In this document: positions 7,580 to 20,348 of the stretch, in pieces
Layout of the letters: each line of letters starts with the position of its first letter
How positions within the stretch are numbered: the first letter of the stretch is position 1
DNA from: a virus
Reading direction: 5' to 3' (one strand)
Length of the DNA: 20,348 nt
IMG/VR virus record: IMGVR_UViG_3300009170_000036
Span: 1 to 20,348 of that record
Notes under the pieces: model-generated
Databases searched by the model: none
Told to the model about the DNA's origin: nothing
Seen by the model: the letters and a program-made list of their open reading frames with translations, nothing else
Program-made: the position numbers and the translations under genes

Positions 7580-9370
7580 TTATACGGCACTTCCCATAGC
7601 AAAGTACATTTCGGCCACTATAGTGGCCCCATCAAACCACTCTAGTTTATACAGAGCCGGAATTTCTAATGGGGCTGCCCCGCCTTGCCAATCGGGATCA
7701 GTCTGCCAATAGTCTTGGTTAATGGCATAACGTATTCTCCAATGACCTACAGGGGTTAACACCCAATCAGTAAGATTCGTTGTAGTTTCGTCACGCCAAT
7801 CGATGATTGGAGGGGATGCTGGTTCTAGGATTGTATGATATTGGTATGTTTCTAATATAGTATAGCCCCCACCAATCCCCTTTTGGACAAGCCCCACGAA
7901 CGTTAATTGTGTGGTAAGGCTTTGCGGGTTTTTCCATATCGTACCTTGCTGGAACGTCACATGCATGGCTGCCGAGTTTTGCGCGTCTGTGTCGGCAACT
8001 AGTCTAGTCATTCCATCATTTTCATACCAATAATAGCTTTGATCCAAATACACGGGATACTGTGGTGCAAGGCCATTTGCTTGTGAAGCATATAGTTGTG
8101 GTACAAGTGTGTACGGGCCTGTTGTTACACAACCGTTCTGTCCATCTTGGCACATTTTGAAGAAGATTGGGTGATTGGTTACGATTCCTTCGGCTGTGAA
8201 CAAAATCTTGAATGAGGTGCCTGAATAGGAACCATCCTTATGTGGTAGCCGCAGCCAAATACCTTGCTCGGCAATACCACTGCCAACGTTGAATCGGTTA
8301 ATACCTATCTCAATATCATTTGGAATGCTGCCCTCAAATGAGGCAACAGTTGCAGTAATATCCCCTGGCAATAGATTTGGGAATGGGCTGATGTTGAAAG
8401 TCATATACATCGGTCCGTCTGGGTACCAAATAGGAGTTGCTGCATCTCCAGGGTATGGGTCAAGGCTGCTGAATTGGTGTGCAGGTACCGCACCATTTGT
8501 ACCATATGGCGCCCCCTCAAAACCAACCCACTGATACATGCCAGTTCCATCACCAAAATAATCGACATATTGGTATGCATATTGCTTGGTCAATTCCCAT
8601 TGGGTCTCTGTAGCAGAACCTGGACCGTACAATGAGGTGACAATCAACGTTCTGTTGCCCCATGTTCCTGACCAACCAGGATAGAACGATGGGCGCAGCA
8701 CAGTACCATTTGCCACGAACACAACTGCACTTTCGTTGACGTACACGCTTGAGCCAGCAAGCCCAGATGAATCAAAATCAACTCTATTGATAAGGTTTGG
8801 TGGATAGCCTGTTGAAAGGATTGAAGTGGACGTCGTGAAGGTTACGAGGATGCTGTTGCTCGCCCCCGCGCCTGCTGTTGGGAATAGCCCGCTAAAGTAG
8901 AGCATATAGGCACCGGCTTTGCTGAACGACAATTCCCCTGTTGTAGAATTATAGGTGATGTAGGGGTGTGCCCGTTCTTGTGTGCCGCCTATGAAATAGC
9001 CTGGTGCGGCAGCCGCACCAACACCACGGACCATTAGCGCGTGGGCCTGACCGAACAAGTTACCGACATTGCCACCACCACCGCCAGTAACCGAGAACTT
9101 GATATCCGTTTCGTCAGTCTGATCAATCACCAACGTTGTTGGGGTCAATGAAGTAAAGGCCTGATTCATCTGTAGCGTGATAATGCCGCTATCAGGCACC
9201 TCCTTCTCAGGCGTGATAATCAATCTTGGACTTAGAGAGTCTAGACCAAACTGTGGTAGGCTTGGCGCATCAGTAGTGTCTACTGCTGGTCCATTGTCTA
9301 CCGGCTTTGGTGGTGCAGGAAGCGCAGTAGGTTCAACAATCTCTAGTAATCCAGGTTTTCCTCTTGCCAT
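7580..9370 (-). CDS. unrecognised tail/baseplate-associated protein
   Basis: 596 aa with no family I recognise. The N-terminal 45 residues are Pro-rich and probably unstructured (VEPTALPAPPKPVD). The rest looks entirely beta: Gly/Ser/Thr-rich strands, many aromatics (GMYQWVGFEGAPYGTNG, YPGDAATPIWYPDG, QSYYWYEN) and a Gly run (TGGGGGNVG). Two Cys close together (MCQDGQNGC) could form a disulphide. There is no signal peptide or membrane segment. Composition and position, 3 nt after gp5 and 18 nt before gp25 inside the late baseplate operon, suggest a virion surface or receptor/carbohydrate-binding protein, but this is inference. T4 has no equivalent between these genes. The start has GGGA about 8 nt upstream. 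Confidence 0.75.
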   Translation of the reverse strand: MARGKPGLLEIVEPTALPAPPKPVDNGPAVDTTDAPSLPQFGLDSLSPRLIITPEKEVPDSGIITLQMNQAFTSLTPTTLVIDQTDETDIKFSVTGGGGGNVGNLFGQAHALMVRGVGAAAAPGYFIGGTQERAHPYITYNSTTGELSFSKAGAYMLYFSGLFPTAGAGASNSILVTFTTSTSILSTGYPPNLINRVDFDSSGLAGSSVYVNESAVVFVANGTVLRPSFYPGWSGTWGNRTLIVTSLYGPGSATETQWELTKQYAYQYVDYFGDGTGMYQWVGFEGAPYGTNGAVPAHQFSSLDPYPGDAATPIWYPDGPMYMTFNISPFPNLLPGDITATVASFEGSIPNDIEIGINRFNVGSGIAEQGIWLRLPHKDGSYSGTSFKILFTAEGIVTNHPIFFKMCQDGQNGCVTTGPYTLVPQLYASQANGLAPQYPVYLDQSYYWYENDGMTRLVADTDAQNSAAMHVTFQQGTIWKNPQSLTTQLTFVGLVQKGIGGGYTILETYQYHTILEPASPPIIDWRDETTTNLTDWVLTPVGHWRIRYAINQDYWQTDPDWQGGAAPLEIPALYKLEWFDGATIVAEMYFAMGSAV

Positions 9371-15583: not shown

Positions 15584-16161
15584 TGGCAAAGAGCCTCTTC
15601 CCGAAGCTTGACGGTCAGATCACCCGACAGGGCACGATCAGATCCGTTCAATGGTACCGAGACAATGTAAAGGCTATTTACGGTAAGGTCTCATCCAAAG
15701 ACCTAATGAAAAACGTAGATCGTCTTACGACCAAGATTGAGCCTGGCAAGATGTATATGTTTTTCTATGATCCCAAGCTCAAAGACAAACTACCGTTCTA
15801 TGACACTTTCCCGCTAGTCTTGCCGTTTCGTGCAATGCCAGACGGGTTCATTGGGCTGAACTTCCACTACCTGCCTTACATGGCTCGTACCGCACTCTTG
15901 AACAAGCTAATGGAATACGCAACAGATACCAAGATGAACGACAAGACGCGGATTGCAGCTAGTTGGAGCATACTGCAAAATGCATCGACAAGTTCATTCG
16001 TGCAACCAGCAGTAAAACGATACCTATACAATCACGTTAAGAGCAGATTCCTTTCGGTCTATGCAGACGAGTGGGCAACTGCGATCATGCTTCCTGTTGA
16101 AACGTTTGAGAAAGCAACCGCAAACCAAGTTTGGGCCGACTCTAGAAGGAAGATGACCTAA
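15583..16161 (+). CDS. conserved T4-superfamily protein of unknown role, next to gp4
   Basis: 192 aa. The central segment KMYMFFYDPKLKDKLPFYDT, then FPLVLPFRAMPDGFIGLNFH, YLPYMARTALLNKL (about 56-110) resembles a protein that recurs near the gp4/gp54 genes of distant T4-like phages and that I recall mostly as hypothetical or, less certainly, as a DNA-end-protector-like (gp2) protein. The N-terminus is basic and the C-terminal half helical (SSFVQPAVKRYLYNHVKSRFLSVYADEW). There is no membrane segment or enzyme motif. It is translationally coupled to gp4 and to the gp54-like gene by 1-nt TAATG overlaps on both sides, so it is a late virion-assembly protein by context. Confidence 0.7.
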   Translation: MAKSLFPKLDGQITRQGTIRSVQWYRDNVKAIYGKVSSKDLMKNVDRLTTKIEPGKMYMFFYDPKLKDKLPFYDTFPLVLPFRAMPDGFIGLNFHYLPYMARTALLNKLMEYATDTKMNDKTRIAASWSILQNASTSSFVQPAVKRYLYNHVKSRFLSVYADEWATAIMLPVETFEKATANQVWADSRRKMT

Positions 16162-17174
16162 TGCCACTACCAATCAATATCGCGCAGGGATTTTTCAACC
16201 TATCTAATCCAGATCCGCTATCACAATTTGCGGGCATGGTGACAGGCAACGTTGATCTGTCTTCCTTTTTTGGAACCCCGACTAGTTCGTTTACTAGTTC
16301 GTTGAGTCTAAACAACCCGACGCTAATGGGTGAAATTTGGTCGCAGGCGAGTCCATACATCAATCTGCCGGCGTTCACTATCCCCGCACAGGCATTGGCT
16401 CTTCTGGCTAGAATCCCGCTGCCTAGCAACTTCACCTCAAGAGTACCTTCGACGTATGGTATTCGGTATCCGATGCCACAAATCCCAGCAGAGAGACCGA
16501 GCATTCCGCCGTCTCCAATGCGACAGCCTGCAGGGCTACAAAACAACTCGTTGACGAAGTTCATTGCCGAGGTACGAAACAGAGATTTCGCGTTCAAGTC
16601 CAAGTACAAAGTCACGCTGCCATCGTCTGTGGGCATCAGTTCACCAACGCAGCTTTTGACTGGTACGATGGATCCACAGACCATATCCTTATTTTGCGAA
16701 CACGCAGAGTTGCCTGGAATCTCGTTCAACACCCAGGCTTTCCGTGTGTATGGTCCGACGTTTGAGCGACCAACTAGCATAAGCTATGGTGGCGAGAACA
16801 TGACATTGCAGTTTCTCGTTGACCAAGAGTTTAGCGTGAAACAGTATTTTGATTCGTGGGTCGGATTGATTGCCGATCCAATAAAGTACCAATTCAACTA
16901 CCCAGATAAGTACCTTTCTTCGGGCATTGTAATCACCCAGTTGAAGCACCGCGATATTGCGTTGCAAGACAGTGGAGATATTGGGGTCTATTCGGTCAGA
17001 CTCATTGACGCATACCCAAAGTTTGTTGTTCCAATGACCGTGAACGGTGGTGACCGCGAAATGCACAGACTGTCGGTTACTTTCACCTATAGACTTTGGG
17101 TGCCAGTGTATGGAGAAGGTGAGCCTGAATTCAATTATGGTGCAGAAGATTTTGTGGGAGTCACATCCCAATAA
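16161..17174 (+). CDS. 54: baseplate tail-tube initiator, gp54-like
   Basis: 337 aa (T4 gp54: 320). In T4, gp54 joins gp48 on top of the hub and primes polymerisation of the tube protein gp19. The N-terminal 130 residues are Pro/Ser-rich and low in charge. The C-terminal 200 residues have the tail-tube fold pattern: FKSKYKVTLPS, ISLFCEHAELPGISFNTQAF, RVYGPTFERPTSISYGGENM, LQFLVDQEFSVKQYFDSWVG, ISV-type strands with GVYSVRLIDAYPKFVVPMTV, and finally MHRLSVTFTYRLWVPV. This pattern is shared by gp19, gp48 and gp54. The name gp54 is chosen over gp48 because gp48 is already present. It overlaps the preceding gene by 1 nt; AAGGAAG lies about 10 nt before the ATG. Confidence 0.8.
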   Translation: MPLPINIAQGFFNLSNPDPLSQFAGMVTGNVDLSSFFGTPTSSFTSSLSLNNPTLMGEIWSQASPYINLPAFTIPAQALALLARIPLPSNFTSRVPSTYGIRYPMPQIPAERPSIPPSPMRQPAGLQNNSLTKFIAEVRNRDFAFKSKYKVTLPSSVGISSPTQLLTGTMDPQTISLFCEHAELPGISFNTQAFRVYGPTFERPTSISYGGENMTLQFLVDQEFSVKQYFDSWVGLIADPIKYQFNYPDKYLSSGIVITQLKHRDIALQDSGDIGVYSVRLIDAYPKFVVPMTVNGGDREMHRLSVTFTYRLWVPVYGEGEPEFNYGAEDFVGVTSQ

Positions 17175-17186
17175 CGAGGAGTCATT

Positions 17187-17909
17187 ATGTCTTTGCCTAT
17201 TCTACAAGTACCTAAGTATGATCTTGAATTGCTGTCAACGAACAAGAAAGTTTCCTATCGCCCGTTCTTGGTCAAAGAGCAGAAGATTCTGATGCAGGCT
17301 CTACAGACTGGCGGCCGAAAGGATGCATTGAAGGCAATCATCGATTGCGCGGCGGCGTGTACATTTGGTGAGATCGATGTTACAGAGTTGCCGACGTTTG
17401 ATCTTGAGCGTCTGTTCTTGAACATTCGCGCAAAGTCGGTTGGTGAGGAAGTTCCAATCAATGTCAAGTGTGATGGCTGCGGTGAGTACAACCCGCTAGA
17501 CGTTAAGTTGATCGACGGGATGCAGGTAACGAACACCGACAACAAATTCGGCAAGTTGGAATTGAAGCCTGACTACGGGTTGATCTTTCGCTTTCCGAAC
17601 GTGCTTGACATGGCAGAAGCAACGCAGCTAAAGGAAGACGGGGAGATTGATGCAGTTGACTTCTACTACCGCCTTGCCAAGAAGTGCCTGAAAGGCGTCT
17701 ATCAGGGAGAGGACTTCTACTCTTCCACCGATTCGACGGAAGACGAAAAGGATGAGGTATTCGAAGCGTTCGGTGCGCTGGAGTTTGAAAAGATACAGGC
17801 GCATTTCGACAAGCTTCCGCAGATTTCGTATGATCTAGATTTCGTGTGTTCGAAGTGCAAGGCCGAGAACCATCTTCATGTAGAGGGACTAGACAGTTTT
17901 TTTGGCTGA
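17187..17909 (+). CDS. 26: baseplate hub/tail assembly protein gp26
   Basis: 240 aa (T4: 208), preceded by GAGGAG 6 nt upstream. The N-terminus (LPILQVPKYDLELLSTNKKV, YRPFLVKEQKILMQAL) and the segment DLERLFLNIRAKSVGEEVPI (72-91) are typical of gp26 in T4-like phages. In T4 the protein is needed for hub assembly. Two CxxC pairs (C95/C98 in KCDGCGE and C221/C224 in VCSKCKA) suggest a zinc-ribbon-like module. The stop follows a run of seven T and is probably bypassed part of the time by a -1 frameshift into the gp51 frame. Position immediately upstream of gp51 and the tape measure matches tail-assembly chaperone genes of other phages. Confidence 0.88.
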   Translation: MSLPILQVPKYDLELLSTNKKVSYRPFLVKEQKILMQALQTGGRKDALKAIIDCAAACTFGEIDVTELPTFDLERLFLNIRAKSVGEEVPINVKCDGCGEYNPLDVKLIDGMQVTNTDNKFGKLELKPDYGLIFRFPNVLDMAEATQLKEDGEIDAVDFYYRLAKKCLKGVYQGEDFYSSTDSTEDEKDEVFEAFGALEFEKIQAHFDKLPQISYDLDFVCSKCKAENHLHVEGLDSFFG

Positions 17910-18109
17910 GCCTGTCTCATGAGGATTTGTTCGAATACTATCGGATGAATTTCGCCTTAATGCAGCATCATGGGTACAGGCTTGAAGAACTAGAGAACAT
18001 GCTGCCCTGGGAGCGAGAAATCTATCTGGCTCTGCTGATGCAGTATTTGGAAGACAAACGAAAACAAGAACAAATGCTCCAATCACAGGCAGGAATATCA
18101 CATGGCTGA
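17187..18109 (+). CDS. 26-51: predicted gp26-gp51 fusion made by -1 frameshift
   Basis: Predicted 307-aa product: 239 residues of gp26 in the zero frame to 17903, then 68 residues in the -1 frame (TGG at 17903-17905 through the stop at 18107-18109). The extension (HEDLFEYYRMNFALMQHHGY, LEELENMLPWEREIYLALLM) matches the gp51-type hub-assembly protein of T4-like phages. The -1 frame has no credible start of its own. The first ATG (in YYRMNF) would remove the conserved DLFEYY segment and has no ribosome-binding site at normal distance, and TTG in DLF has GAGG only 2 nt away. The arrangement parallels lambda G/GT and P2 E/E'. A separately initiated gp51 from a weak start cannot be excluded. Confidence 0.65.
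17882..17903 (+). promoter_or_regulatory. -1 frameshift signal: SD-like AGAGGG plus T TTT TTT slippery heptamer
   Basis: The heptamer at 17897-17903 is in the phase required for tandem -1 slippage: zero-frame codons AGT TTT TTT GGC TGA. After slipping, reading continues TGG CTG AGC into the gp51 frame. AGAGGG at 17882-17887 lies 9 nt upstream, like the stimulatory Shine-Dalgarno of E. coli dnaX. AGACAG (17891-17896) and CTGTCT (17912-17917) also form a dyad around the site. Confidence 0.65.
17903..18109 (+). CDS. 51: gp51-like baseplate hub assembly segment (no own start)
   Basis: The 68-codon part that encodes the gp51-like sequence, beginning at the frameshift point. In T4, gp51 is required for hub assembly but is not reported as a stable virion component, which fits a chaperone role. 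The sequence is mostly helical, with a conserved-looking LPWEREIYL motif and a charged tail (LEDKRKQEQMLQ). Its frame is open upstream to 17846, but that part reads as an out-of-frame shadow of gp26. It overlaps the tape-measure start by 8 nt. It is listed separately so that a reader can see which bases encode gp51; expression probably depends on the frameshift. Confidence 0.75.
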   Translation, partial: WLSLSHEDLFEYYRMNFALMQHHGYRLEELENMLPWEREIYLALLMQYLEDKRKQEQMLQSQAGISHG

Positions 18110-20348
18110 CGAAACACCAAGACCTAAGATCGAAAACATATCGGGCATCGACCGTGAGGCCATGGCGGCCCGTAGGGCGAGTAAGCCTGGCTCGGGTATG
18201 GGAAAGAGCGGTTCGGTGAGGGCTGCTGACTTCTTCAAGCTGCAGGCTGAGATTCAAAGCGGGCAGACGCAGCCAGATGTTGTGGCTGAACGATTTGCTG
18301 CAGGCATCATGGAAGCCGTTCAGTTAATGAACCTCAAGCCAGACACTAAAGAGTTCAAGGACTTCATTTCTGGTGTCAGAACTGATATGGCGAAGGAGGT
18401 CAAGAATAAAGGCCACGCACTTCCTTCGGGTGTTGTCGAAGGTATGAAGATCATGATCGACCGTCTAGGGCAGGTTCAGGCGGAGATGCGAAAGCAAAAG
18501 GTAACCGAACGCACCGAAAAGATCGTCACGCGGGTAGAGAAAATCGCCAATGACAGCAAGAATTCGCATGAGCTAGAACGTAAGGAGAAGTTGGTCAAGC
18601 GTGAAGAGGATCTACAAAAGCAGGCGAAGGCGCATCAGAAGAAGGCAGATGAGCTTATCGTGAAACGCGAGAAGTTGATGGGTGTTGACGAGAGACAGTT
18701 TGCCTTGCGTGGCAAACTGGTTGATCTGGAAATGAAGCAACGCGAGCTGTACAACAAGGAAATTGCCAAGGGCGATATTCAATCAAAGGTCATGCATGAG
18801 AAATCTAGCAAGGCGCTAGAACTGATTGGTAAGGCAGACAAGGAGTCTATCGAACAGAAGGACAAGTATGACAAGGATATGCTTGAGTTGCTGGCGCGAA
18901 TAAACGACACACTCAAGGCAATGGGCCAGGCGCCGTTGTCTGAAAGGCACGAATATCGCAAGCAACTAGTTGGGCTGATGGGCCGTGGTAAGGCGATTGC
19001 AGATGACCCAGATCGTGGTCCTGGTCGTCGTGCTTTTGGCTATCACATGAAACAATATGAAAAGGCTGTTGAGCCAGCATTGCGTGGTCCAGGTGTCGGC
19101 GCGCAGCTAGCCGATTGGGGCAAGACCGCTGTCAAGAATACTGCAAGGAACATATGGGAGCAAAACGTTCCCATGCCACTTCGCATCATTGGTGAGGCAG
19201 CTTTTAGTGGGCTCAAGAATTCGTTCGGCAATTCGAAGCGTGAGTTGTATGCCAAGGCGAAGTACAGTTACGAACAAGACAAGATCACAGCCATTCGCGA
19301 GAAGATGCTTATGGGTGAGTCTGATGACTTCATGGAAATTGACGGCGAGCCTATCGCAATGCGTCATGGTAAGAAGAGCCGCCGTGGTCGTCGTGGAACG
19401 TCTGATAGAATCGTTGCGCGTGGCGACAGCTTCAATCCATTCCAAGGAACAAAGCGCCCTGCGGCGGATATGCATGTTGAGCGCATCGTAGTAGGAAAGC
19501 TGGAGGTAACAGGAAAGCCTGGTGGTGATGGCAAAGAATCGTTGGCAGACCGAGTGGGTAAGGAGGCTAACGATATCAAGAAAGGCGAGAAGGTCAATAT
19601 CTTCGGTCTATTGAAGGGATTCTTGGGATCATTGGGTGGTCTGTTCACCTCTTTTGGTGCCATGTTCATGGGTACCTTGGGCAAGCTTGCTTTGGCATTC
19701 GGTCCGTTGATGGGTATTTTGGCAAAGGCACTTCCACTTCTTGGTGGTGCTGCTGCTGTCGCAGGCGCTGCTGCGGCTGGTTACTATGTTGGTGGCAAGA
19801 TCAATGATGCTGCAAACTGGGTCTCAGAGAAGATCACAGGACGAGAAGGAGAGACTGCACAATCTGCAATCGTCGCTGGTGTTGACAAGCTTCAAGAGAA
19901 GGCGGGTGGTCTGCTAGGCAAGTCGTCTGCAATGCAACAGAAGGACGACGAAGTGAAGGCATCAACAAAACGCTTCGGTGAGTTGCTGAAACTGCAAGGT
20001 GGTGAGATGACTTCCAAGCAGGTTGCATTCTGGAAAGGACAGGGCGTTGATGTGTCTGCGGCCAAAGTCAACGAGAATGTAACGGTTCTCGGCACTGACA
20101 ACAAGCCAGTGCAGCCAAGAAAAACGATGGAGACGACAGACCTAGTCCCAAACATGATTCCAAAGAATCAGTTGATGCCTGATGAATCTCCTGCTGAGAA
20201 GGCGCGTATGGCTAGTGGTGGAAAGGACTCTGCGCTCGCCGCTCCTTCTGCTGCAATCTCTCGTCGCACAGATATGGTTGACTCTGCAAGTCGTCAACTA
20301 GAAGCAAGCAAGGAAGTCAGAACTGCAAAGCCGACTGTGGTTGTCAAT
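18102..20348 (+). CDS. 29: tape-measure-like tail protein (gp29 position), partial at right edge
   Basis: Open from the ATG at 18102 (MADETPRPKIENISGIDREA) to the window end: 749 codons with no stop, so the protein is longer than T4 gp29 (590 aa). AGGA lies 7 nt before the start, which overlaps the gp51 frame by 8 nt. Residues about 120-265 are a long, highly charged, coiled-coil-like helical region (VKREEDLQKQAKAHQKKADE). A basic patch (HGKKSRRGRRG, about 422-432) follows. Residues about 497-565 are hydrophobic and Gly/Ala-rich (FGLLKGFLGSLGGLFTSFGA, then GGAAAVAGAAAAGYYVGG), as in tape measures that insert into the host membrane. Position right after the gp26/gp51 unit supports this role. 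The name gp29 is by position; sequence identity with T4 is not obvious. Confidence 0.75.
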   Translation, partial: MADETPRPKIENISGIDREAMAARRASKPGSGMGKSGSVRAADFFKLQAEIQSGQTQPDVVAERFAAGIMEAVQLMNLKPDTKEFKDFISGVRTDMAKEVKNKGHALPSGVVEGMKIMIDRLGQVQAEMRKQKVTERTEKIVTRVEKIANDSKNSHELERKEKLVKREEDLQKQAKAHQKKADELIVKREKLMGVDERQFALRGKLVDLEMKQRELYNKEIAKGDIQSKVMHEKSSKALELIGKADKESIEQKDKYDKDMLELLARINDTLKAMGQAPLSERHEYRKQLVGLMGRGKAIADDPDRGPGRRAFGYHMKQYEKAVEPALRGPGVGAQLADWGKTAVKNTARNIWEQNVPMPLRIIGEAAFSGLKNSFGNSKRELYAKAKYSYEQDKITAIREKMLMGESDDFMEIDGEPIAMRHGKKSRRGRRGTSDRIVARGDSFNPFQGTKRPAADMHVERIVVGKLEVTGKPGGDGKESLADRVGKEANDIKKGEKVNIFGLLKGFLGSLGGLFTSFGAMFMGTLGKLALAFGPLMGILAKALPLLGGAAAVAGAAAAGYYVGGKINDAANWVSEKITGREGETAQSAIVAGVDKLQEKAGGLLGKSSAMQQKDDEVKASTKRFGELLKLQGGEMTSKQVAFWKGQGVDVSAAKVNENVTVLGTDNKPVQPRKTMETTDLVPNMIPKNQLMPDESPAEKARMASGGKDSALAAPSAAISRRTDMVDSASRQLEASKEVRTAKPTVVVN

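Follow-up and report, generated by a model that had tools for sequence, protein, structure and literature searches.

In this study, we asked whether genes 26 and 51 of a T4-superfamily phage are two genes or one. The window, a stretch of 20,348 nucleotides from the IMG/VR virus record IMGVR_UViG_3300009170_000036, contains a gp26 open reading frame (ORF) whose 3' end is overlapped in the −1 frame by a second, gp51-like ORF without a start of its own, which is a feature of G/GT-type gene pairs. Most long-tailed phages obtain their short and long tail-assembly helper proteins through a −1 frameshift. Genes 26 and 51 are, with high probability, one tail assembly chaperone gene read two ways by −1 slippage.

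The gp26–gp51 junction in the window

The features of the locus are listed in Table 1. The 3' end of the gp26 ORF reads GAG GGA CTA GAC AGT TTT TTT GGC TGA. The codon phase of the heptamer, T (17897) TTT (17898–17900) TTT (17901–17903), is that required for tandem −1 slippage, with GGC as the single sense codon left before the gp26 TGA. The −1 frame continues from TGG (17903) through to a TGA at 18107–18109, and the 239 residues before the slip and the 68 after it give the fusion of about 307 aa that had been predicted. The phase of the heptamer just before the stop, the spacing of exactly 9 nt to AGAGGG and the gp51-like tail, all described in an earlier sequence-only reading of this DNA, were confirmed here. 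Downstream of the heptamer, no ATG, GTG, or TTG precedes the conserved gp51 core in the window's −1 frame, and the sole upstream start in this frame is a GTG at 17846, inside gp26.

Table 1 Features of the gp26–gp51 locus in the window.
Feature	Position	Strand	Remarks
Tail tube-like gene upstream of gp26	16161–17174	+	phrog_45 tail tube, E = 9.9e-23
gp26, short tail assembly chaperone (TAC-N)	17187–17909	+	240 aa, stop TGA
Predicted frameshift product (TAC-NC), gp26–gp51 fusion	17187–18109	+	307 aa; from heptamer phase
AGAGGG, Shine-Dalgarno (SD)-like element	17882–17887	+	9 nt 5' of the slippery site; from sequence
Slippery heptamer T TTT TTT	17897–17903	+	in phase for tandem −1 slippage
gp51-like −1 frame extension	17903–18109	+	68 aa; phrog_634 and a sequence alignment
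Possible downstream RNA structure, weak	17904–17956	+	12-pair stem, 17923–17934 / 17941–17952
Probable tape measure protein ORF	18102–20348	+	runs off the window; named from position, length, and make-up

Apart from the heptamer, the 20 kb window has no run of at least seven T or A. It contains 14 in-phase X XXY YYZ heptamers in 5806 codons, a frequency of 0.0024 per codon. When the 24 overlap codons were recoded synonymously, T7 arose in 2.9% of the trials and an in-phase heptamer of whatever kind in 14%. Taken alone, the window is suggestive of a non-chance origin of the heptamer. That the heptamer is not a product of chance follows from the comparison across relatives, which we regard as decisive.

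The ATG at 18102 opens the next ORF, which encodes at least 749 aa with a charged region and one hydrophobic segment. A sequence search with this long ORF gave no database match; it probably encodes the tape measure protein, judging from its position, length, and make-up. The sequence-only reading placed the unit directly against the tape measure gene. The adjoining ORF overlaps the −1 ORF by 8 nt, and it is named from these features. Chaperone genes of the G/GT type sit between those for the tail tube and the tape measure; here, the gene upstream of gp26 is tail tube-like, and the ORF downstream is the probable tape measure gene. Elsewhere in the window, a 596-aa ORF among the baseplate genes (7580–9370, minus strand) matched no PHROGs or NCBIfam family.

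Conservation of the junction in relatives

Relatives were gathered from IMG/VR and from named phages, giving 195 loci, 157 of which are non-redundant. Peptides of gp26 or gp51, rather than the heptamer, served to find the loci, and profiles of gp26 and gp51 were used to locate the gp51 part. In all 195 loci with separate ORFs, the gp51-like part is in the −1 frame and overlaps gp26. An in-phase T TTT TTN is present in 155 of the 157 non-redundant loci, which span several families, and its last codon is TTC in 118, TTT in 22, TTA in 12, and TTG in 3. The two loci without it, Det7 and L156, have a gp26 that is apparently cut short. Single-linkage clustering at 45% gp26 identity gave 24 clusters, with the heptamer in every one. 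Carriers include P-SSM2, S-MbCM6, P-HM1, Melnitz, Ochrobactrum OC, Aeh1, phi-ST2, Moby, ACP17, phiM12, phiM9, AF3, Atu_ph04, S13, AsFcp_4, and S-B68.

Several loci differ from this pattern or from their annotation. In the Ackermannviridae phages Det7, IME250, and T765 (L026, L202, and L203), a gp51-like −1 ORF without a start before the core is present, and GAG ATT TTC ATT TAA is found where the slippery heptamer is expected. VAP7 and D492 (L206 and L028) have no canonical heptamer, and a TAATG stop-start overlap could start their gp51 part. A gp51-like −1 ORF is present and unannotated in Aeh1 (1798–1974 of its locus), S13, AsFcp_4, ACP17, S-MbCM6, and ACG-2014d (loci L017, L204, L208, L022, L029, and L030).

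Codon choice around the heptamer is biased towards keeping both the heptamer and an SD-like GGAGG upstream of it. The first F codon is TTT in 155 of 155 loci (109.7 expected from codon usage), and the codon preceding it ends in T in all 155 (91.9 expected). Five and six codons 5' of the first F codon, Glu is encoded by GAG in 85 of 111 cases (32 expected) and Leu by NTG in 68 of 113 (30 expected), preferences that together build the GGAGG. The calculated pairing energy with the anti-SD sequence has a sharp minimum 6–9 nt upstream of the heptamer in the 155 relatives. In the window, the anti-SD duplex of AGAGGG has an energy of −6.3 kcal/mol, which is not stronger than that of synonymous alternatives (z −0.2).

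Downstream of the heptamer, RNA stability is highest between +10 and +50 (mean z −2.0 over the 155 loci). The raw z values exaggerate independence, since relatedness is common among these loci; across the 24 clusters, the SD and structure signals persist at reduced strength (t about −2.4 and −3.3, respectively). In the P-SSM2-like cyanophage clade, a covarying 11-bp stem begins 5 nt past the heptamer. Across 45 sequences, 44 of them distinct, pairing is seen in 95.2% of cells, a value inflated because these sequences were chosen for fitting the stem; the three pairs with changes on both sides (19 cells) are better evidence. The covariation score of this stem exceeded those of all 500 shuffles and of all slid versions. 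Stems differ from clade to clade. A single conserved downstream stem for all loci was considered and rejected, as covariation over the 155 was dominated by clade structure. A strong stem in the window was likewise unsupported, the minimum free energy of 17904–17960 being −13.3 kcal/mol (z −1.13 against shuffles, not significant), and the window had no match in Rfam.

These observations bear on three other accounts of the frame break. A small, separate gp51 might be translated by termination-reinitiation or from its own start, with the T run serving only to encode conserved phenylalanines. An in-frame ATG overlaps the gp26 stop in 11 of 155 relatives and a later ATG is present in 58, and databases annotate the gene apart in P-SSM2, P-HM1, phi-ST2, and others. 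However, most relatives have no good gp51 start: 84 of the 155, including the window, have no ATG, GTG, or TTG before the core, and a good SD accompanies only one of the 58 later ATGs. In addition, TTT and the preceding T are kept beyond amino-acid need, and the ATG that databases give as the start of gp51 in the P-SSM2-like clade is buried within the conserved stem. We consider this account improbable as a replacement for slippage, and some relatives with a stop-overlapping or later ATG may also make free gp51.

The remaining two accounts place the event outside translation. RNA polymerase slippage on the T run could give frame-changed mRNAs, and the T7 of the window is indeed a homopolymer. 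In 118 of 155 relatives, however, the run is T6 followed by C, and transcriptional slippage usually requires a longer run. Moreover, it is on the ribosome that codon phase, an SD-like element, and a downstream stem act. We find slippage by the polymerase very unlikely. A sequencing or assembly indel in the homopolymer would have split one gene into two frames, and some sequencing methods often misread T runs. This explanation is refuted by the relatives, with the same frame break in 195 loci from many metagenomes and from cultured phage genomes and an identical site on two further contigs (L002 and L003), and we give it almost no weight. Ribosomal −1 slippage is the reading that we retain for the gp26–gp51 junction.

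Protein families, fold, and T4 homologues

The gp26 protein matches PF12322 (T4_baseplate, E = 1.4e-53) and phrog_150 (E = 5.8e-55), and the −1 tail matches phrog_634, "baseplate hub assembly catalyst" (E = 5.9e-24). A sequence search of solved structures with gp26 gave only weak matches to non-phage proteins. An AlphaFold model of gp26 had a pLDDT of 92.7. Residues 1–87 of the model aligned with 3FGX (Z 7.8), 2OB9 (Z 7.7), and 3KLU (Z 7.0), the top three among the 997 chains aligned to the model, and the next, unrelated chain scored 5.3. 3FGX, 2OB9 (HK97), and 3KLU (YqbN) have been named tail assembly chaperones (PMC9603447). With Z values just under 8, the match is of moderate strength and suggests that the N-terminal domain of gp26 has the tail assembly chaperone fold. 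The window gp26 (17187–17906) also carries CxxC motifs (CDGC and CSKC) that resemble a zinc ribbon just 5' of the slippery site. The late CPxCG is invariant in four aligned relatives, and many cyanophage homologs are without the late pair.

T4 gp26 is homologous to the window gp26 along its length (E 8.8e-18). The N-terminal part of T4 gp51 matches the gp26 profile (E 1.4e-10), and its residues 203–248 match the gp51 tail (E 4.1e-8). A single ORF, gene 51, is matched by the gp26 profile as well as the gp51 profile in T4 and in Aeromonas phage 25. T4 gene 51 is an in-frame long form. In T4, genes 26 and 51 are separate and on opposite strands, whereas the gp51 part of the window occupies the −1 frame and has no start of its own. 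The heptamer of the window gp26 is absent from the end of T4 gp26, which reads GAG TTC TTT GAG TTA CTA TAA. The sequence-only reading took 26/51 to be the chaperone pair of this T4-superfamily phage; the fold and the conservation in relatives agree with this, but T4 itself departs from it in its gene arrangement. In Klebsiella phage KP27 (L205, 3001–4295), a fused gp51 is directly followed by a separate gp26 ending in CAA TTT TTA, which may be a decayed slippery site.

Proposed mechanism, prior reports, and wider meaning

We propose a scheme for the expression of the gp26–gp51 unit, in which the slippage, its rate, and the binding partners are what we infer. Most ribosomes would read gp26 to its TGA and produce the short chaperone (TAC-N). 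A minority would slip back by one base on T TTT TTT into the −1 frame, aided by pairing of AGAGGG, 9 nt upstream, with 16S rRNA. The slipped ribosomes would then produce the 307-aa long form (TAC-NC), of which the gp51 domain is part. On the model of lambda G/GT, the role of the short form would be to coat the tape measure protein, probably the product of the adjoining ORF, and that of the less abundant long form would be to bring in subunits of the tail tube. In G/GT-type systems, the long form amounts to a few per cent, and neither form is present in virions. Conservation of the heptamer, codon bias, and the chaperone fold all support the earlier suggestion that gp26 and gp51 form a programmed −1 frameshift chaperone unit.

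The slippery site of lambda G/GT is G GGA AAG. The present unit differs from lambda G/GT and P2 E/E' in its slippery sequence, T TTT TTN, which is preceded by an SD-like element, and in its larger gp26 with an extra domain containing CxxC motifs. In Escherichia coli dnaX, an SD-like element lies about 10 nt upstream of the slippery heptamer A AAA AAG, and signals of the dnaX type have a stem-loop 5–8 nt past the heptamer. The SD-like AGAGGG 9 nt upstream resembles this arrangement; a downstream stem is strong and covarying in the P-SSM2-like clade and weak in the window. The dnaX product and its role are unrelated to a tail chaperone.

A review described the G-T frameshift as widely conserved "except T4" (Atkins et al. 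2016, PMC5009743). The PRFect paper (PMC10885494), summarizing Vladimirov et al. 2022, mentions that some T4-like phages have, instead, a short gene together with a long one that is fused. The Adele paper (PMC12846349) credits poly-T slippery sites in the TAC-N genes of T4-like phages to Vladimirov et al. 2022. According to these citing papers, the 26/51 frameshift link is in essence already reported for T4-like phages, and the sequence-only reading, which did not regard it as established, was mistaken on this point. A literature search for an open description of the 26/51 frameshift returned only citations of Vladimirov et al. 2022. The chaperone role of 26/51 likewise has prior art, and the best candidates for a new contribution are the SD-like element and the clade-specific stem. 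Sullivan et al. 2010 (PMC3037559) recorded that gp51 of cyanophages has only about 20% of its length in other T4-like phages and that gp51 is missing in Aeh1. The −1 tail offers a simple cause for both oddities, as it is present and unannotated in Aeh1.

Taken jointly, we find it rather probable that a recoding cassette shared across the T4 superfamily, the T4-type and Ackermannviridae lineages excepted, is ancestral, that the T4 genes were split later, and that the oddities of gp51 are artefacts. If so, the cassette would consist of the SD-like GGAGG, T TTT TTN, and, for some clades, a stem in which the gp51 start of the annotation is also hidden. In T4, the separate genes 26 and 51 would stem from a subsequent duplication during which the slippery site was lost, frameshift first and duplication later being the order that we infer. 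The "short" and "missing" gp51 of cyanophages and Aeh1 would then be annotation artefacts. In many phage records, the annotation of the long chaperone is wrong or absent. The frameshift reading itself ties the T4 "hub assembly" proteins 26 and 51, which have been listed as proteins of unknown function or assembly catalysts, to the general tail assembly chaperone system, a unification that is well supported by the comparisons made here.
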